A DNA stretch of 64,000 bases, taken from the NCBI GenBank assembly GCA_017448965.1, contig JAFSKK010000009.1:62001-126000 (forward strand), given 5' to 3'. Of this stretch, positions 3,623 to 40,498 are shown one piece after another. Numbering within the stretch: the stretch's first letter is position 1; each line of letters begins with the position of its first letter. The notes under the pieces were generated by a model. The model was not told where the DNA came from, ran no database searches, and saw nothing but the letters and a program-made list of their open reading frames with translations. Source of the stretch: Bacteroidaceae bacterium. GTDB lineage: Bacteria > Bacteroidota > Bacteroidia > Bacteroidales > Bacteroidaceae. Both the position numbers and the translations under genes were made by a program.

Positions 3623-6064
3623 ATGAAGAAAACTATTGTATCCATTTTGTTGGCATCCAGCACATTGACGGGTTTTGCCAACCATCCTGATTCTGTGTAT
3701 GTACGTCCTGACATGCAGAACGGCACACGCGACTTACAGATAGCCTACTCCATCGACGGAAAACACTGGACACACATGCCCATCAACCTCTTCGAGAGCG
3801 ACTACGGCACCTGGGGCAGCGAGAAGAAAATGTACTATCCCGTGCTGTCTTACGATGGAAAGAAGTATCGTGCCGTCTTCATCCCCAGCCTCAAGAACGG
3901 GCAGATAGCTATCACGGAGTCGGAGGATTTTGCCCTCTGGAAGCCTCAGGATTATCCCTATGTGGCCGAAAGTGAGTTCCAGAGCATCGTGGAGACACAA
4001 GAGCGAGTGTCGAAGAAGAACGTGATCCGTGTGCCCTACGCTGCCATCCAGAACCTCATGTCCAAGAAGATACGAGCTGACCGAAACGGTGCATGGGAAC
4101 GTGACAACTTTGTGGCATCGGGGGCATCCATCGCCAACAACGCCGACCCCATCAGCGCCACACTCACCATCAATTGGGATGACCGCAAGGCCATATCGCC
4201 CAACCTCATGGGCATCTTCTTCGAGGACATCAGTTATGCAGCCGATGGAGGTCTGTATGCCGAACTCATCCAGAACCGCGACTTCGAATACACGGCCGAC
4301 GACCATCGGGGATGGGATGCACAGACAGCATGGAAATTGGTGGGCGATGGCACCACTTGGAGCATCGAAACCCAAGCTCCCATCCACAAGAACAATGCCC
4401 ACTACTCCACCCTCAAAACCACCACACCTGGTGCCCGACTCATCAACGAAGGATGGGACGGCATCACCCTCCAGAAGGGCAAGAAATACAACCTCAGCCT
4501 CTTCACCAAGGGTGCCGGTTCTCTCCGCGTCAGTCTCGTGAGCGAGGGTTCCCCCATCGCTTCCAAAACCTTCAAGGCCACCAAGGAATGGCAGCAACAG
4601 AAGACAGTCTTAACTCCTTCTGCATCAGCAGAAAAAGCAACGCTTGTTATAGAACCGCTTGAAGCAGGAAACGTCAGCATCGACTTCATTTCCCTCTTTC
4701 CGCAGGAGACATTCAAGGGTCATGCCAACGGTCTCCGAAAAGACTTAGCAGAGGTAATTGCCGACCTGAAACCACGCTTCGTCCGATTCCCCGGAGGATG
4801 CGCCACACATGGTCAGGGCATCGACAACATTTACCATTGGCAAGCCACCGTGGGCGACCTTTGGGAACGTGAGCCTGCCATGAACATCTGGAGCTATCAC
4901 CAGACACGCGGATTGGGCTTCTATGAGTATTTCCAGTTCTGCGAAGACATCGGTGCAGAACCGCTTCCAGTGTTGGCAGCAGGTGTGCCTTGTCAGAACT
5001 CGTGGAAAGGCGGTGCAGGTCAGCAAGGCGGCATTCCTTTCGAGAAGGATCTGAACGGCAAACCATCGCCCTACACCTACATGGGCAAGCCGCTCACGAT
5101 GGAGAGTTATCTGCAGGAACTGCTCGACCTCATCGAATGGGCTAACGGCGATGCCAAGACATCCGAACTGGCCAAAATTCGTGCGAAGGCAGGACATCCG
5201 AAGCCTTTCAACCTGAAGTATCTCGGCATCGGCAATGAAGACCTCATCGGCGATGTGTTCCTGAAGCGTTACCGTTTCCTCATCGAAGGCATCCAGAAGG
5301 CACATCCCGAAATCACCATCGTCGGCACGGTTGGTCCTTTCTGGGAAGGCAGCGACTACGAATACGGCTGGCGCGAGGCGAAGGAGAAGAACATCCCCAT
5401 TGTGGATGAACATTACTACAACGGCATCGGCTGGTATTTCCATCATCGCGACTTCTACGACAACTACGACCGCAACGGCACGAAAGTCTATCTCGGCGAA
5501 TGGGCATCGCGTGGCAACAACGTGGCCAATGCACTCATCGAGGCAGCCTACCTTGCCAACGTGGAGCGCAATGCCGATGTGGTGGTCATGTCGTCATACG
5601 CACCGCTGCTGGCGAAGGAAGGGCACACCAGTTGGAACCCCGACCTCATCTACTTCAACAATCAGGAAGTGAAGCCCACGGCCAACTATTTCGTGCAGCG
5701 TGCATTCGGCCAGAACAGCGGAGACGAGTACATCTACTCCGACCTGCAGGTGAATGGCGGCAGCAACATCAGGGAGCGTCTTGACCATTCGGTGGTGAAG
5801 GACAGCCAGACAGGCGACCTCATCGTCAAGGTCATCAGCCTGCTGCCCAAAGCCTCAACCCTGCAAATCAACCTTGGCGACGAGGCGCTGAAGGGCTACA
5901 GCACCAGTGCCGAACTCAGCATCCTCGCGAAAGAGAACGAGCCTGACCGCCAGCGCGAATGGGATGTGAACGAGAAGCGCACCCTCAGCATCGGCAGCGA
6001 GTTCACACTCAACGTGCCAGCCTACTCGGTCTCCATCGTCCGCATCAAGAAAATGAAGAAATAA
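3623..6064 (+). CDS. GH51 alpha-L-arabinofuranosidase, secreted, with N-terminal extension
   Basis: 813 residues with a signal peptide (about 1-19, ending at GFANHP). The GH51 part starts near residue 175 with a carbohydrate-binding-like section (GIFFEDISYAADGGLYAE). It continues into the TIM barrel carrying the acid/base Glu539 (GIGNED) and the nucleophile Glu626 (YLGEWAS), then a C-terminal beta-sandwich ending in SVSIVRIKK. The enzyme removes terminal arabinofuranose from arabinan or arabinoxylan, probably in the periplasm. Residues about 20-130 (YSIDGKHWTHMP...) are an extra N-terminal region resembling part of a beta-propeller/GH43-type blade. It lies in a likely operon with the preceding lipoprotein. 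The GH43 gene at 25 kb and the isomerase-like gene at 8.5 kb may serve the same sugars. Confidence 0.93.
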   Translation: MKKTIVSILLASSTLTGFANHPDSVYVRPDMQNGTRDLQIAYSIDGKHWTHMPINLFESDYGTWGSEKKMYYPVLSYDGKKYRAVFIPSLKNGQIAITESEDFALWKPQDYPYVAESEFQSIVETQERVSKKNVIRVPYAAIQNLMSKKIRADRNGAWERDNFVASGASIANNADPISATLTINWDDRKAISPNLMGIFFEDISYAADGGLYAELIQNRDFEYTADDHRGWDAQTAWKLVGDGTTWSIETQAPIHKNNAHYSTLKTTTPGARLINEGWDGITLQKGKKYNLSLFTKGAGSLRVSLVSEGSPIASKTFKATKEWQQQKTVLTPSASAEKATLVIEPLEAGNVSIDFISLFPQETFKGHANGLRKDLAEVIADLKPRFVRFPGGCATHGQGIDNIYHWQATVGDLWEREPAMNIWSYHQTRGLGFYEYFQFCEDIGAEPLPVLAAGVPCQNSWKGGAGQQGGIPFEKDLNGKPSPYTYMGKPLTMESYLQELLDLIEWANGDAKTSELAKIRAKAGHPKPFNLKYLGIGNEDLIGDVFLKRYRFLIEGIQKAHPEITIVGTVGPFWEGSDYEYGWREAKEKNIPIVDEHYYNGIGWYFHHRDFYDNYDRNGTKVYLGEWASRGNNVANALIEAAYLANVERNADVVVMSSYAPLLAKEGHTSWNPDLIYFNNQEVKPTANYFVQRAFGQNSGDEYIYSDLQVNGGSNIRERLDHSVVKDSQTGDLIVKVISLLPKASTLQINLGDEALKGYSTSAELSILAKENEPDRQREWDVNEKRTLSIGSEFTLNVPAYSVSIVRIKKMKK

Positions 6065-10392: not shown

Positions 10393-10785
10393 ATGGAAGA
10401 TATTCAGAAAGTCTATGACTTCATCGACAAGGCGCAGAATTTCTATCTGGCCACAATCGAGGGTGACCAACCCCGCGTGAGAGTGTATGGCGCCAGCCTT
10501 CTCTTCGAGGGCAAAATCTACTTCATGGCCATCAAAGGCTCCAATGCCCCCAACCAACTGGCACAGAATCCCAAGTTCGAGATCTGCACGTTCAAGCACA
10601 ACGTACTCCGCATGAGTGGCAAACTCGTCCTCGACGACCGTGCAGAAGTGAAACAAGCCCTCATCAAGAAGCTACCCGCCCTGAGCGCCAGCCTCGGCGA
10701 GGAAGGCATGCTGATGTACTACGTGACAGACGCCACCGCCACATTCTACAACATGCAGGGCGTGTACGAAGTCATCAAATTCTGA
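10393..10785 (+). CDS. Pyridoxamine 5'-phosphate oxidase-fold flavoprotein
   Basis: 130 residues, close to the usual length of small PNPOx-like proteins. Typical features are an N-terminal helix, then FYLATIEGDQPRVRVYG (the first strands of the split barrel and flavin-contact region), then KIYFMAIKGSN and FEICTF. Proteins of this type bind FMN or F420/heme, and many are general oxidoreductases; the substrate is unknown. It is a lone gene with a -7 box near 10334-10341, and ends before a strong terminator hairpin shared with the convergent gene. Confidence 0.85.
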   Translation: MEDIQKVYDFIDKAQNFYLATIEGDQPRVRVYGASLLFEGKIYFMAIKGSNAPNQLAQNPKFEICTFKHNVLRMSGKLVLDDRAEVKQALIKKLPALSASLGEEGMLMYYVTDATATFYNMQGVYEVIKF

Positions 10786-35292: not shown

Positions 35293-35638
35293 CTGAGTTT
35301 CAGCCACAACACCAAATTCCTCCACTAATTCTTTTCATCTCATACCACACACCCGTTGCCCCCACGAGCTTTACGCCACTACCCTCACGAGCTTTACGTC
35401 GCTACCCTCGTGAGCCTTTCGACACTCGTGTTTCACACAGAACCTATATGCTTCCCCACACAGCCTCATCGTGTTATATTTCACACAGAAAACTCAGAAA
35501 GCACAGAAATATTCACAAACATGTGTAAAAAAAGCCGTAATTTTGCAGCCGAGAAACAAACAGGACAGCTACATCCGTGTTTCCCAAAAACTTCCGAAAC
35601 ATTAGAACGACAACATAAAACTCAATATATCTCACAGA
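35293..35638. other. Intergenic region with a 23-bp degenerate repeat and promoter of DUF4250 gene
   Basis: Units CACGAGCTTTACGCCACTACCCT (35363-35385), CACGAGCTTTACGTCGCTACCCT (35386-35408) and CGTGAGCCTTTCGACACTCGTG (35409-35430) form a 23-bp tandem repeat. A plus-strand -7 box TAATTTTG lies at 35538-35545. No credible gene: the open frame from 35356 to 35871 has no protein-like features and overlaps the DUF4250 gene in another frame. Confidence 0.6.
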
Positions 35639-35839
35639 ATGGAACATCTACCCAAAGATCCCTTCATGTTGGTGTCAGCCATCAACATGCTCCTAAGAGA
35701 CCACGAATTCGACTCCCTGGAAGATTTGTGCGCCAACTTCGACAAAGAAGTGGAAGAACTCAAGGCCTACCTTCTGCAACACGGCTACACCTACAGCGAA
35801 GCACAAAAACAGATGCGCCCCGTCGGCTACGACGAATGA
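35639..35839 (+). CDS. DUF4250 domain protein
   Basis: 66 residues including the start. The family pattern is plain: LPKDPFMLVSAINMLLRD, then SLEDLC and a central EELKAYLLQHGYTY. Small helical protein of unknown role, found in Bacteroidetes and Firmicutes. It is preceded by a promoter box, and was originally convergent with the tRNA array that now lies beyond the island: the hairpin just after this gene recurs directly after the tRNA-Ser gene. Confidence 0.85.
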   Translation: MEHLPKDPFMLVSAINMLLRDHEFDSLEDLCANFDKEVEELKAYLLQHGYTYSEAQKQMRPVGYDE

Positions 35840-35843
35840 GACC

Positions 35844-35880
35844 TAAACGCAAGAAAGAGCCACTCATGTGACTCTTTCTT
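35844..35880. repeat. Left 37-bp direct repeat of the island (att-like), contains terminator hairpin
   Basis: Identical over 37 bp to 40375-40411. The core is an inverted repeat AAGAAAGAG...CTCTTTCTT around CCACTCATGTGA. Located 5 bp after the DUF4250 stop. A degenerate inverted relative (GGCTCACACATGAGTAGG) lies just inside the island at about 35910. Confidence 0.9.
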
Positions 35881-35938
35881 CAATCAGCCCCACTCTTGCC
35901 ATACTACTGGCTCACACATGAGTAGGCATAAAAGCAAC

Positions 35939-36286
35939 TTAGAGTATGGCTACACCCTGGGTAGAGTTTGACAACACCTTCTTTTCTGTAATCGATTTGA
36001 TCATCACCACCTCCCGAGGATCAACACAGCCGTCGCATTCAGACATTTCAACAAACAAATTCATTGCATACGTTTTCTTTTCTGCTGAAAATTTGGCGAA
36101 CTCATTAGAGAGATAGTCAAAATCTATCATTTCCAAATGATCAAACTCACTGATATCTAATTCAAAATCGTGAAAGATTTTGTTTAGATATTCAGTCTCC
36201 GCAGGATTCAAGATACTATCAGCCCTCATAATGAGTACTAGCGTCTGGAATATTATCCTTTTTTCTAATATTGTGAATTCTTGCAT
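35939..36286 (-). CDS. TerB-like protein
   Basis: 115 residues, mostly helical. Features of the TerB/TerB-like fold are the N-terminal helix with LVLIMRADSILNPAETEYL, an acidic pair of DG.../D.E motifs, and the second FVEMSECDGCVDPREVVMI, where the acidic residues bind divalent metal in TerB. Such proteins were first linked to tellurite resistance but are common in defence and stress loci as membrane or metal-sensing adaptors. Starts 2 bp after the helicase stop, so it is the last gene of the operon. Confidence 0.7.
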   Translation of the reverse strand: MQEFTILEKRIIFQTLVLIMRADSILNPAETEYLNKIFHDFELDISEFDHLEMIDFDYLSNEFAKFSAEKKTYAMNLFVEMSECDGCVDPREVVMIKSITEKKVLSNSTQGVAIL

Positions 36287-36288
36287 AA

Positions 36289-38892
36289 TTATCTGATATT
36301 GTTTTTGAAAAATGAATCGTACTTTCTGTTCCCCATATTGATAATGAACAAGTTATTCCTTGCCCTTGTAATAGCCGTGTATATCAAAGCAGGTGCGTTT
36401 TCTCTTGCTTTTATGTAATATCCTTCATATTTTTCATCATCTTTCATTTCTGGTTGCAAAAGTAATATGACATTTTTTGACTCCCAGCCCTTGAAGCTAT
36501 GAATTGTAGAGAATTTAATCGCGTCACAATCTGTTGTAAAATGGGTTTTTGCGGCTCGACGTATATCTTCCAAATCACGGTCGAAGCAAACGACGTTTTT
36601 TGTTTTTCTCTTTAGCTCATTATATTGTTCAAGGGTCTCGAAGTTAATCATGCTCTGCAGGTGAGACAAATGGGTGTAACAATTCTCTATGTCCCGCAAC
36701 ACATTGATAGATTCTGCCATTACCACCACATCTGTTGAGCTTAAGTTGTAGGTCTGCATAATCCAATTTATATTCTTGCATATTTCCAGCCCTTTCTTCT
36801 CTGTACCCAAATTCCAATACTTAATGTAAAACTTTTCATACGTATCCTGAATAGAGAATAGTTGAGAAGAACTATCCATAAAAGTAATAGCGAAGAGTGA
36901 CGACAAGTGGGCGATTCGGGGATTGAGAATACGCATAGACACCCTTTCACTTAATTCGTTCCAGCGGCCTGTGAAAGTGTGAATTATCGGCATTTTTGAA
37001 TCGGCTTCTAATTCTCGGCCATATATGTTCTGCTCACCATCTCCAAAAATGGAAATACTGCCATCAGGATCTAGAAAATAGTTTATGATGCTGTCAAACC
37101 ATGCTGTTTTAAAGTCCTGAGCTTCGTCAATAATGATTGTTTTGTATTTAGCAATATCTTTTGTATATGGGGCAAAGAATTTGACATTATCATAATCGAC
37201 AAGTGATGCTCCATCAGCGTAGCGATTTGCCATAGATTTAAAGAAACGATGATAATTTGTGATTTCAAACATGGTTGTTGAAAAATCAGCAGGAACCTGA
37301 TTAATCCGCATTCTAACATATTGAATCAGGGATATATTAAAAGTCAGTATCAGAACCGTATCACCAGTACGCAGATGTTGCTCTACCGCTCTATTTGCTA
37401 CTACCTGAGTCTTTCCACAGCCAGCGACTCCTTTTACACGCAGACGCTTATTTTCACTACGAACAAACTTTTTTTGTTCATCACTGAGCCTAAAATTCTG
37501 GTCACCATCCTTGAACGAATGCCAATGACCTACTATGAGGGATAACAGTTCATTATAATAGTCAGACTTAAAACCATTCGCACGTTGGGAGTTGAGTATT
37601 TCTTTCAAATCATCAGATGGGTATAATTGAAGAACATACTCAAAAAAGTCCTTTTTCTCAATTCTATCGTCAGCTTCATTATATTTTCGTTCTTTTGCAA
37701 TTGCCATTCTTCGATTAGAGTTGATTTTCTCATTAACTTTGGCAATCTGTTCTTCTACTTCAGATTTAGAACTCTTCGGGAAATATAGAGCTGTTTTAAC
37801 ACTATTATACACGGTCTTGTTTATAACTGAATCTATCTTTATACTTTTAAGATGCGTACTAAACAAGAAACTTTTTATGTTTTCAATACGACGATAATAT
37901 ATTTCTAATTTCTCAATGTCCTCGCATACGTTAAGGAGGATGATACCGTGACTCAAATGAGCCAATACTACATCTGGAACATCTGTGCAGATGTTTGGCC
38001 TAAAAAAGACATCATACGTTTTTCCACAGCATGCCCTTATCTTATTATAACAATCAATCACGTCATCACTCACTACCCCTCTTAAACATTCAGCGGCATA
38101 ATCGTAGTCATCGCTATTGCAGATGCTCTCAGCTTTCTCAATGTAGTTTTCATTAATTGTTTCGCTTCTTTTATGGACAAAACATTTCGTCTCACAACCA
38201 TAAGGATGCTTCGTCTTAGTTGTATAAGCATAGGGAAATTGCTCGATGTTCGAGAAATATTGAGTTGGAGAAAAATAACCGCAGAAGTCTTTTATACGTG
38301 TATTGTATGAGAACTTTGGTCCGACACAAATCATATAATTGACATTTGCCAATGAACCTGTTTTGTGCGCTAGCCAATGAAGGCTGATATTTCTGATATC
38401 GAGTATATTTGAAAATAAATTTATACTTATTCTAGACTTGCAATCAAGTTCATCCCATAATTCATAGTCATTATTTGGTATATACTTGTTGGCACATCTT
38501 ATATCAACACCGGGACCTATAGCGTGCTTTATCCAAAAATGTGCACGAGACAAAGCTAACTCTGAAGGCTCTATCAGCGTTATGCGTTGAAGCCTACCTA
38601 ACAAATTTCTCTCTGATAGAAATTCTATGGCCACTAGCGATGCCATCCCTTGCCCGCAGCCCCAATCAAAGATCTCGTAGCCGTACATTTCGAAATCTTG
38701 TGTTGGCAAATTCTGCAGTGCGGCACGACATTTTATAATATGAATCTCTCCATATGCTGCAAGATACGCATTAAGTTCGTCTTCCGTTTGAGGAACTTTT
38801 GTCCCATGATCAGTTACTTCCCATGGTCTATCTTTAAGATGAGATGGTAGCCTTTGGTAGCACTGTTCTACTATAGAGATAGGATCAATCAT
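36289..38892 (-). CDS. Fusion protein: class I methyltransferase fold + NERD-like segment + superfamily I helicase
   Basis: 867 residues. Residues about 45-245 look like a class I SAM methyltransferase: motif I FDWGCGQG (75-82) and an acidic strand end TLIEPS (105-110). Residues about 290-345 resemble a NERD nuclease-like module (PNICTDVPDVVLAHLSHGII), but the catalytic E-x-K is replaced (NVCE), so nuclease activity is doubtful. The helicase part (465-867) has motif I GVAGCGKT (488-495), motif II DEAQ (589-592), motif III SIFGDGEQNIYG, motif V IHSFKGWES and motif VI TAITRARNNL, all intact. Its ATG overlaps the DUF1848 stop (ATGA), indicating coupling. I do not know a described system with this exact fusion; defence is inference. 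Confidence 0.85.
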   Translation of the reverse strand: MIDPISIVEQCYQRLPSHLKDRPWEVTDHGTKVPQTEDELNAYLAAYGEIHIIKCRAALQNLPTQDFEMYGYEIFDWGCGQGMASLVAIEFLSERNLLGRLQRITLIEPSELALSRAHFWIKHAIGPGVDIRCANKYIPNNDYELWDELDCKSRISINLFSNILDIRNISLHWLAHKTGSLANVNYMICVGPKFSYNTRIKDFCGYFSPTQYFSNIEQFPYAYTTKTKHPYGCETKCFVHKRSETINENYIEKAESICNSDDYDYAAECLRGVVSDDVIDCYNKIRACCGKTYDVFFRPNICTDVPDVVLAHLSHGIILLNVCEDIEKLEIYYRRIENIKSFLFSTHLKSIKIDSVINKTVYNSVKTALYFPKSSKSEVEEQIAKVNEKINSNRRMAIAKERKYNEADDRIEKKDFFEYVLQLYPSDDLKEILNSQRANGFKSDYYNELLSLIVGHWHSFKDGDQNFRLSDEQKKFVRSENKRLRVKGVAGCGKTQVVANRAVEQHLRTGDTVLILTFNISLIQYVRMRINQVPADFSTTMFEITNYHRFFKSMANRYADGASLVDYDNVKFFAPYTKDIAKYKTIIIDEAQDFKTAWFDSIINYFLDPDGSISIFGDGEQNIYGRELEADSKMPIIHTFTGRWNELSERVSMRILNPRIAHLSSLFAITFMDSSSQLFSIQDTYEKFYIKYWNLGTEKKGLEICKNINWIMQTYNLSSTDVVVMAESINVLRDIENCYTHLSHLQSMINFETLEQYNELKRKTKNVVCFDRDLEDIRRAAKTHFTTDCDAIKFSTIHSFKGWESKNVILLLQPEMKDDEKYEGYYIKARENAPALIYTAITRARNNLFIINMGNRKYDSFFKNNIR

Positions 38893-39935
38893 AGAATACT
38901 CTCGCTCTTAGGATTCATTTCATGTCGTTTATAATTCTCAGCAGCCTTCTCTTTACTCGTATTGGCATAGCAATACTCACAGAAATGAATACAAGTATTG
39001 TATTCACCAATATCTTTACTCTGCATACATCCACAGAAATCACGTTGTCCACCATCCTTAATGGCATAGCGGTCGTCTGGCAATAGAATGGCACTTGCTG
39101 GCAATGGTTCTGGCTCACCGAAGAGATTATATTTCCTTTGTTTGATGGCAGCACCTATGAAATCCATCAACTGCTTATCATCATGGGCAAATCTCACAAT
39201 CAGATCGTAATCAATACAATGATTATGCTCTACACCAAACTGTTGAAGATCGATTTTTTCTCCGCAAGTTGCAAGTGTATAACCCCATTTTTTGTTGAGC
39301 ATAGACAAACGCTCGGCAAACTCCATCATTTGTGACTCAGTCCAATCTTGATAGGGAATATTATTCTTTTGAAGATTGCTTTTTACCTTATTGTAACTAA
39401 CAATATCAGCAAAACTAAACACGAGTTTTTCTGTGTAGCCTCGTAACTGATCACCAATACACTCTATCTTGGACAGCAGTGTATCAATAGAAATATCATC
39501 AGTCAATATCAACGGATCAAAACGCCAAATAACTCTTCCCTTTCCTAGCTTATCTACTAGTTGCTTGAACGTGTCTATACGCTCTGAGAGTTTTGGAACA
39601 CCTCGTTCCAAACCCTCGGTTTCATAATCATTAAGAGTATATTGGATATAGCAACCAATATTCCGTTCTTTCAGATAGTCAAGATGAGGCAACAATGGAC
39701 GAGGATTCTTTGACCAAAAGACGATGAATCGAGTTTTATTATAAGACACATATCCTTTGACCCCGTTAAACGGATTAGTCCAAGCTGAATAACCCACCTT
39801 TAGCCGATGGAAAAACCAATCAGCATAAAAGGACGGAACATCTGTACTTCGGCTTGCAGAAACTATTATCGGTACTTGCATTGGCACCACTTCTCCGTTT
39901 TCTCTTGGCTGGTTTTCTTTAATCCACGCTGCCAT
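38889..39935 (-). CDS. DUF1848 family protein with CX3CX2C cluster
   Basis: 348 residues. The family opening IIVSASRSTDVPSFYADWF is clear, then FWSKNPRPLLPHL and QYTLNDYE. A TIM-barrel-like middle follows (VIWRFDPLILT, LVFSFADIV). The C-terminus has CGC (301-303) and then C315-x3-C319-x2-C322 (CIHFCEYCYA), the spacing of radical-SAM 4Fe-4S sites but at the opposite end of the protein; Cys224 lies in LATCGE. DUF1848 is an uncharacterised family. The stop overlaps the helicase start by 4 bp, and an upstream decayed gene ends 11 bp before its ATG. The Fe-S role is inference. Confidence 0.85.
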   Translation of the reverse strand: MAAWIKENQPRENGEVVPMQVPIIVSASRSTDVPSFYADWFFHRLKVGYSAWTNPFNGVKGYVSYNKTRFIVFWSKNPRPLLPHLDYLKERNIGCYIQYTLNDYETEGLERGVPKLSERIDTFKQLVDKLGKGRVIWRFDPLILTDDISIDTLLSKIECIGDQLRGYTEKLVFSFADIVSYNKVKSNLQKNNIPYQDWTESQMMEFAERLSMLNKKWGYTLATCGEKIDLQQFGVEHNHCIDYDLIVRFAHDDKQLMDFIGAAIKQRKYNLFGEPEPLPASAILLPDDRYAIKDGGQRDFCGCMQSKDIGEYNTCIHFCEYCYANTSKEKAAENYKRHEMNPKSESIL

Positions 39936-39946
39936 ATTATTTTTTG

Positions 39947-40202
39947 TTATGCTTTCAAATGCCCATACAACTTCAATCTCAGCACCTCACCATTAGGGAG
40001 CTCGAACTGGAGCTTGACTTACCCTCTGGCCATAGACTTTGGGATATTGCTATTGAAGTACGGATTCTTATGTCCCTACAATAGCACAACAGCGACCAGT
40101 CCTTCGTCTTCTGCACGATATATCTACCATCTCGAACATCACCAGCTGACCCCGAATCTCATATCTCTTGCTTTGTTTCTGGTGCAGTTTTTCCATCGTC
40201 AT
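39947..40202 (-). pseudogene. Decayed small gene at the head of the island operon
   Basis: Starting from the ATG at 40202, one frame reads MTMEKLHQKQSKRYEIRGQL. After about 40125 the sensible reading moves to a second frame (GRYIVQKTKDWSLLCY). Near 40078 it moves to a third (GHKNPYFNSNIPKSMARG, a TAA, then KLQFELPNGEVLRLKLYGHLKA) ending at 39947. So two frameshifts and at least one in-frame stop broke an approximately 85-residue protein. Family not recognised. It lies directly after the operon promoter, so its loss may be recent. Confidence 0.6.
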
Positions 40203-40216
40203 ATAGGTTTCGCCCA

Positions 40217-40224
40217 CAAAGGTA
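40217..40224 (-). promoter_or_regulatory. -7 box of the island operon
   Basis: TACCTTTG on the minus strand, only 14 bp before the ATG of the decayed first gene, suggesting an almost leaderless transcript. No other promoter-like box was found between the decayed gene and DUF1848. Confidence 0.55.
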
Positions 40225-40287
40225 GGGCAAAAAATGCATAATACAAAATAAAAAAATCCTTTTTTTGAGTCAGGAATCCTTCTGAGC

Positions 40288-40342
40288 AACCATAAACCAG
40301 CGGAATCGGGAAGAAAATGCAAGTTTCCGCTGGTTTATGGTT
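40288..40342. repeat. 17-bp perfect inverted repeat near the right island end
   Basis: AACCATAAACCAGCGGA (40288-40304) pairs with 40326-40342, with a 21-nt loop. It lies between the operon promoter and the right direct repeat. No strong U-tract; could be a recombination-related or termination structure. Confidence 0.75.
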
Positions 40343-40374
40343 ATGAGTCACTTTGCAGCCAAAATCACAGGATA

Positions 40375-40411
40375 TAAACGCAAGAAAGAGCCACTCATGT
40401 GACTCTTTCTT
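40375..40411. repeat. Right 37-bp direct repeat of the island; tRNA-array terminator
   Basis: Identical to 35844-35880. Read on the minus strand, it is the hairpin with U-tract directly after tRNA-Ser and is probably the terminator of the tRNA operon. Confidence 0.9.
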
Positions 40412-40413
40412 TG

Positions 40414-40498
40414 CGGAGGGAGAGGGATTCGAACCCCCGGTGCCTCTCAGCACGACGGTTTTCAAGACCGTTGTAATCGACCACTCTACCATCCCTCC
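40414..40498 (-). tRNA. tRNA-Ser (UGA)
   Basis: 85 nt, type II with a long variable arm (GTGCTGAGAGGCAC region). Anticodon loop TCTTGAAAA gives anticodon TGA. Acceptor GGAGGGA pairs with TCCCTCC, discriminator G, no encoded CCA. Last gene of the array and the one next to the island boundary. Confidence 0.95.

Follow-up and report, generated by a model that had tools for sequence, protein, structure and literature searches.

The 64,000-nucleotide stretch analyzed here (the window; Bacteroidaceae bacterium, GenBank assembly GCA_017448965.1, contig JAFSKK010000009.1, positions 62,001-126,000 of the forward strand) contains an AT-rich island with an operon of three intact leftward genes, encoding a DUF1848 protein, an 867-amino-acid (aa) fusion protein and a TerB-like protein, in this order. 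At about even confidence, we read the island as one type of an undescribed modular family, most likely acting in anti-phage or anti-plasmid defence and probably gated by modification. The core of this family would be DUF1848, predicted to be radical-SAM-like (SAM, S-adenosylmethionine) and possibly circularly permuted, together with a class I SAM-dependent methyltransferase (MTase) domain. The MTase domain is usually fused to or located beside an effector, in this case a UvrD/GajB-like superfamily 1 (SF1) helicase with a presumably dead NERD-like domain and a TerB-like partner. The genes are linked, and modules are swapped while DUF1848 stays constant. DUF1848 is a Pfam domain of unknown function; no paper naming DUF1848 or PF08902 was found in the titles and starts of abstracts searched. 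The genes of the operon are:

38889..39935, minus strand: DUF1848 protein, 348 aa, operon gene 1, with a C-terminal CX3CX2C motif at residues 315-322 (PF08902, E = 3.1e-91)
36289..38892, minus strand: 867-aa fusion of a class I MTase (~1-245), a NERD-like domain without E-x-K (~285-400) and a UvrD/GajB-like SF1 helicase (~465-867)
35939..36286, minus strand: TerB-like protein, 115 aa, operon gene 3 (PF05099, E = 5.7e-5)

The first two genes overlap by 4 bp, and 2 bp separate the fusion gene from the TerB-like gene, whose product scores below the PF05099 gathering cut-off (23.8 vs 24.4 bits).

Gene linkage and cassette swapping behind DUF1848

Among 45 genomes of the genus, the 867-aa protein was found in its own genome only, besides an MTase-only match in one other (G031; genomes and loci are denoted G and L). 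In 399 genomes of the same family, 31 had a match, with the full-length fusion in nine genomes and the MTase part at 30 places, 29 of which were inspected (G118:C194 was left out). DUF1848 was encoded directly upstream in all nine full-length cases, and TerB directly downstream in seven. Furthermore, DUF1848 lay within 6 kb of 28 of the 29 inspected MTase places, on the opposite strand in L200. The exception, L206, is cut off by a contig edge; in the same genome, another contig carries a DUF1848 gene about 1 kb from its end. The preliminary description of this DNA, made from the sequence alone, had proposed a single functional module, and the recurrence of the genes together and in the same order supports this.

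Linkage was also recorded in a DUF1848-based scan of named genomes (533 relatives, 80 kept), where an MTase protein was encoded within 6 kb of 48 of 79 DUF1848 open reading frames (ORFs) and was the immediate neighbour of 36 of these. The two genome sets overlap, with identical MTase proteins in L194/L276 and L200/L249, and their counts are not independent; a few members recruited by hidden Markov model (such as L177 and L243) may be spurious, and L285 (long) and L143 (short) contain stretches reading as X. An MTase partner was lacking for 38 of 67 DUF1848 ORFs in the family genomes and for 31 of 79 in the named genomes, which is partly explained by contig ends (5 and 7) or by a different MTase protein (L197, L217, L272). 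At L197 (3368-8320), DUF1848 is followed by a 1,650-aa protein with a NERD domain (1e-8, E-F-K present), an AAA helicase and, at the C-terminus, a weak match to Rsm22 (6e-4, under the cut-off), i.e. the same core in reversed domain order; the proteins of L217 and L272 are alike by eye only. In a tree of 68 DUF1848 proteins, 30 rows formed a group consisting entirely of such solo members, with weak support (81/72), and the MTase-linked members were clustered (8 changes vs 22 with shuffled labels). A phylum-wide search of 395 genomes detected the MTase domain in 4, the own genome included, and the system therefore seems concentrated in this bacterial family.

At the other MTase places, the same MTase domain occurred with different partners, still near DUF1848. 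These types comprise (i) RecQ-like helicases (~1,370-1,890 aa in complete cases), most with a coiled-coil gene behind them and some carrying a PD-(D/E)XK-like insert, read by eye; (ii) an SF1 helicase, an ADP-ribosyltransferase/glycohydrolase protein and the MTase, each encoded by its own gene; (iii) an MkoC-like helicase; and (iv) Sel1 and leucine-rich repeats (LRR) with a DUF6602 or radical-SAM neighbour. TerB was located after 16 of 22 UvrD-module fusions and none of 22 RecQ fusions; for the coiled-coil gene, the corresponding counts were 0 of 22 and 19 of 22. A scan of viral contigs gave no match to the 867-aa protein and seven loci for DUF1848; the IMG/VR contigs L287 and L288 are a near-identical pair of the UvrD type. 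In L129 and L130, two genomes share an identical fusion (100%, 882 aa), next to which one of them has an apparent transposase gene pair; recent transfer is probable.

The swapping of modules is evident from sequence identities. Mean DUF1848 identity was 67% within the UvrD type, 66% within the RecQ type and 67% between them, whereas the corresponding values for the MTase domain were 52%, 38% and 32%. L128 (UvrD) and L185 (RecQ) have DUF1848 proteins that are 96% identical and MTase domains that are 25% identical. Twelve DNA pairs were hand-picked from pairs with at least 80% DUF1848 identity, including three with the same kind of MTase for comparison. In all nine pairs with different MTases (23-34% identical), DNA similarity stopped near the DUF1848 stop codon, at most 79 bp ahead of it and at most 23 bp past it, while it continued beyond DUF1848 in the three others.

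L144, a short unannotated record labelled 'Bacteriophage sp.', and L185 resemble each other at about 92% in their outer DNA, over 0.6 kb immediately before DUF1848, 2.6 kb at a greater distance upstream and 0.33 kb downstream; the downstream match runs to the end of the L144 record, and ~3.5 kb between the two upstream matches differs. Because the outer DNA is shared on both sides, the two records read as one locus in which the same DUF1848 gene precedes a different cassette in each. This pattern, with DUF1848 constant and the MTase-effector cassettes exchanged, could not be seen from a single sequence. Separately, L209 and L210 are 99.4% identical over 1.7 kb of their DUF1848 regions, and L209 retains only a 170-aa MTase start without the RecQ cassette, which it has probably lost by decay or deletion.

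Predicted enzymes, defence setting and competing explanations

Residues C315, C319 and C322 of DUF1848, which form the CX3CX2C motif, were invariant across 19 and across 27 aligned members, and the predicted structure contains a partial barrel of the radical-SAM fold. Matches to PF04055 always remained under the curated cut-off (weak match in 14 of 19, best E = 0.027), and a PDB sequence search gave no meaningful match. When four DUF1848 sequences were permuted in silico, two matched PF04055, each in a single stretch (model positions 5-136 and 5-120; E = 0.038 and 0.044), the third matched positions 5-23 only (E = 0.13, equal to unpermuted), and the fourth, that of the window, gave no match; none of three reversed control sequences matched. 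We regard DUF1848 with good confidence as a radical-SAM protein and lean towards its being circularly permuted.

For the MTase domain, a 29-member alignment yielded the consensus DWGCGQG, EPS and SN(I/V)LD, with D76, C79-G80-Q81, P109-S110, N162 and L164-D165 invariant. Neither the NPPY nor the PCQ motif expected of DNA methyltransferases was encountered in this alignment. METTL17 is described in passages on the 8csp intermediates (PMC9892005); sequence did not confirm chain 7 of 8csp as METTL17, an identity that we infer. The motifs of both SAM-type proteins and of the helicase are intact, and in the structure model of the 867-aa protein, confidence is low for the helicase (mean predicted local distance difference test score, pLDDT, 68).

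Imposing a PADLOC threshold of 1e-15 and counting overlapping families rather than genes, 95 neighbours of MTase-linked operons (of 136 listed, from L124-L201 without L177) matched 54 families, with type I restriction, Abi and PDC entries among the matches listed. Only 2 families were matched by 95 background genes (of 100 ORFs taken at random from the window and the four genus loci L078, L080, L081 and L084). For the defence role suggested in the preliminary description, a defence-like setting is supported.

The combination of two SAM-type proteins with a helicase, nuclease or ADP-ribosyltransferase suggests a modification step gating an attack step. The two SAM enzymes would set or recognise a mark on nucleic acid, and this modification would control the helicase/nuclease module, which would then attack unmodified invading nucleic acid or a cell with disturbed modification. 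Such a logic would be akin to restriction-modification in which the modification step is shared and the restriction modules can be exchanged. The DpdF-like helicase in a RecQ type favours this restriction-like reading, and the fold neighbours of both SAM enzymes leave RNA open as a possible substrate. Tentatively, and with some doubt, the proposal may be extended to a large undescribed immune family built around a permuted radical-SAM DUF1848 as its unchanging hub; cassettes of MTase with a helicase, nuclease or ADP-ribosyltransferase would be exchanged at the gene end. Bacteria would then change weapons and keep one shared nucleic-acid-modifying step.

Several observations weigh against modification-gated defence. 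These are (i) the lack of the catalytic E-x-K in the NERD-like domain, where the fusion has N321-V-C323 and a plasmid homologue has E-V-K; (ii) the outcome of permutation, which lengthened the PF04055 matches without improving on the best unpermuted score; and (iii) the 76 PADLOC families matched by 95 neighbours of solo DUF1848 genes (of 103; L159 and L174 were dropped). The first point corrects the preliminary description, and the NERD-like part of the fusion is probably catalytically dead in the UvrD type of the window; N321 and V322 were almost invariant in 11 aligned fusions. Concerning the third, enrichment of defence families around linked operons over solo neighbours had to be rejected (54 vs 76), only the neutral background being different. 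The comparison therefore does not single out the linked operons, and DUF1848 as a whole tends to lie in defence-rich DNA. Around solo DUF1848 genes (L154-L183), the matches listed include NERD-UvrD, GajB-like and DpdF-like helicases, KwaB and type II restriction. DUF1848 may, judging from these neighbourhoods, be a hub beyond methyltransferase systems.

It is rather unlikely that the system guards RNA and acts by abortive infection, with DUF1848 and the MTase modifying tRNA or rRNA and a mark that is lost, changed or present on phage RNA releasing the helicase or ADP-ribosyltransferase to stop the cell: most modules look DNA-directed (UvrD, RecQ/DpdF-like, NERD, PD-(D/E)XK-like), and fold similarity does not give the substrate. 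An improbable further option is that DUF1848 acts as a maturase that introduces a radical or a post-translational modification into a conserved segment of the MTase domain, which alone would be the sensor. Such a role would explain why DUF1848 is constant and interchangeable, and agrees with its near-constancy beside partners only 23-34% identical in the nine pairs and with the extra radical-SAM protein after the Sel1/LRR type (L261). By their known functions, however, most of the best structural neighbours of DUF1848 act on nucleic acids, although the list also has three with protein substrates, PFL-activating enzyme, Mmp10 and anSME. Finally, it appears very improbable that the mobile island carries an operon for DNA repair or housekeeping, in which DUF1848 would be a repair lyase partnered by the helicase, given the patchy presence of the full-length fusion (9 of 399 genomes) and of the MTase domain across the phylum, the cassette swapping and the defence-rich neighbours. 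A constant radical-SAM-like gene with swapped effector cassettes would be a new way of diversifying bacterial immunity; it might also yield new nucleic-acid chemistry and would help in finding many unannotated Bacteroidales defence operons.

Island, promoter and insertion site

The following features surround the three genes:

35639..35839, plus strand: DUF4250 gene, 66 aa, left flank of the island (PF14056, E = 1.3e-19)
35844..35880, no strand: left 37-bp direct repeat with terminator hairpin (z = -5.7), after DUF4250
40132..40196, minus strand: remnant (5′ coding end, start codon at 40196) of an ORF6N-domain gene in the operon leader, from a DNA match
40217..40247, minus strand: Bacteroidetes-type promoter TTTG-N19-TACCTTTG upstream of the ORF6N remnant, from a pattern search
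40288..40342, no strand: perfect 18-bp inverted repeat with a 19-nucleotide loop (z = -7.5), just upstream of the operon promoter
40375..40411, no strand: right 37-bp direct repeat with terminator hairpin (z = -5.8), directly downstream of tRNA-Ser
40413..40498, minus strand: tRNA-Ser (TGA), first of eight tRNA genes in an array, from a tRNA call

The preliminary description had noted two identical 37-bp repeats, each with the tRNA-Ser terminator hairpin, around an AT-rich segment of about 4.5 kb. The two copies are indeed exactly identical, and the right one ends one base from the tRNA-Ser gene. GC content is 38.2% in the island (35881-40374) vs 49.7% in the remaining window, and the lowest value among 203 other 4,494-bp windows was 43.0%.

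The same description had counted four leftward genes. The three intact ones stand, and the supposed decayed fourth is mostly leader, made up of the promoter and the 5′ end of an ORF6N gene ahead of a stretch (39936-40131) with no assignment; the operon therefore has three genes behind a borrowed promoter and leader. Positions 40132-40224 match G000:C5:39822-39914 at 85% DNA identity, adjoining an ORF6N match (C5:39874-40212), so that a leader relative with an intact ORF6N gene is present on contig 5 of the same genome. No significant relative of the remnant was found among the fetched ORFs, and later searches placed it as ORF6N. The pattern TTTG-N19-TAnnTTTG, the promoter type of the phylum, has 8 matches in the window vs 1.1 expected, and the copy at 40217-40247 likely drives the operon.

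DUF4250 was found in 38 of the 45 genus genomes searched, and 30 of these loci were read. One, G015, has the empty arrangement that the preliminary description had supposed before insertion, with the DUF4250 stop codon, a single hairpin and tRNA-Ser, its hairpin differing in sequence from that of the window. Other DNA separates DUF4250 from tRNA-Ser in G031 (~1.6 kb), G034 (~1.4 kb) and G016 (~7.5 kb). We take the tRNA-side 37-bp copy to be the old one and the DUF4250-side copy to be its duplicate, because the tRNA-side hairpins of G029, G031, G034 and G041 are almost the same as that of the window. In G010, the nearest relative by DUF4250, no tRNA occurs within the 12 kb read; a transposase-like gene (L066 8225-9181), which we take to be REP-associated, directly follows DUF4250 in the place of the island. 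Upstream of DUF4250 in the window, three 23-bp tandem copies (100, 87 and 70% identical to the first) are found at 35359-35427.

Horizontal acquisition of the island is supported by its AT-richness and by the absence of the fusion from the other 44 genus genomes, except for the MTase-only match in G031. Of the features of a site-specific integrative element, direct repeats (37 bp) and an empty site (G015) are present and an own integrase is not: a family search found none among the three intact island genes, and the other island ORFs are short. The repeats would mark entry into the tRNA-Ser terminator via a recombinase in trans or homologous recombination and would lie outside the function of the system. 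Flanking direct repeats were rejected as a hallmark of the system (2 of 63 loci vs 2 of 46 controls; the raw count was 4 of 65, with L177 and L243 dropped as artefacts of overlapping bounds), as was a tRNA site (tRNA in 1 of 18 loci). The only two flanked loci were L278, where 99-bp direct repeats (95%) at 5529-5627 and 10555-10653 flank the MkoC-like type, and L185 (58 bp, 88%).

Comparison with known systems

Several described systems share parts with the island and its relatives. Gabija (GajAB) differs in that GajA nuclease is matched by none of the three island proteins, which include two SAM-type proteins instead. The PADLOC entries for a reverse transcriptase-associated DUF1848 (DRT) and for the NERD-UvrD candidate C3a187 share with the island the DUF1848 family (1.3e-36) and the NERD-UvrD helicase family (7.5e-33), respectively; no reverse transcriptase family is present in the three island proteins, however, and the entries as listed are without the MTase fusion and module swapping. 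Mokosh (MkoA/MkoC helicases) resembles the L278 type in its MkoC-like helicase (2e-59) and differs by the MTase fusion behind DUF1848. The Schlafen (SLFN11) helicase likewise differs from the island fusion, which has an N-terminal MTase and in which the Schlafen core nuclease was not recognised.

A parallel in logic is offered by Dpd, the 7-deazaguanine DNA modification and restriction system, which joins modification to restriction and of which DpdF is a part. The helicase of the RecQ-type operon L185 is DpdF-like (2e-70). In contrast to Dpd, no DpdA-type transglycosylase family occurs among the three island proteins, the core consists of DUF1848 and the MTase, and the window type has a UvrD-like helicase. 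With radical-SAM enzymes (Elp3, RlmN, Cfr, spore photoproduct lyase), finally, DUF1848 shares a partial barrel fold and CX3CX2C, but its cysteine motif is C-terminal, for which a circular permutation is proposed.

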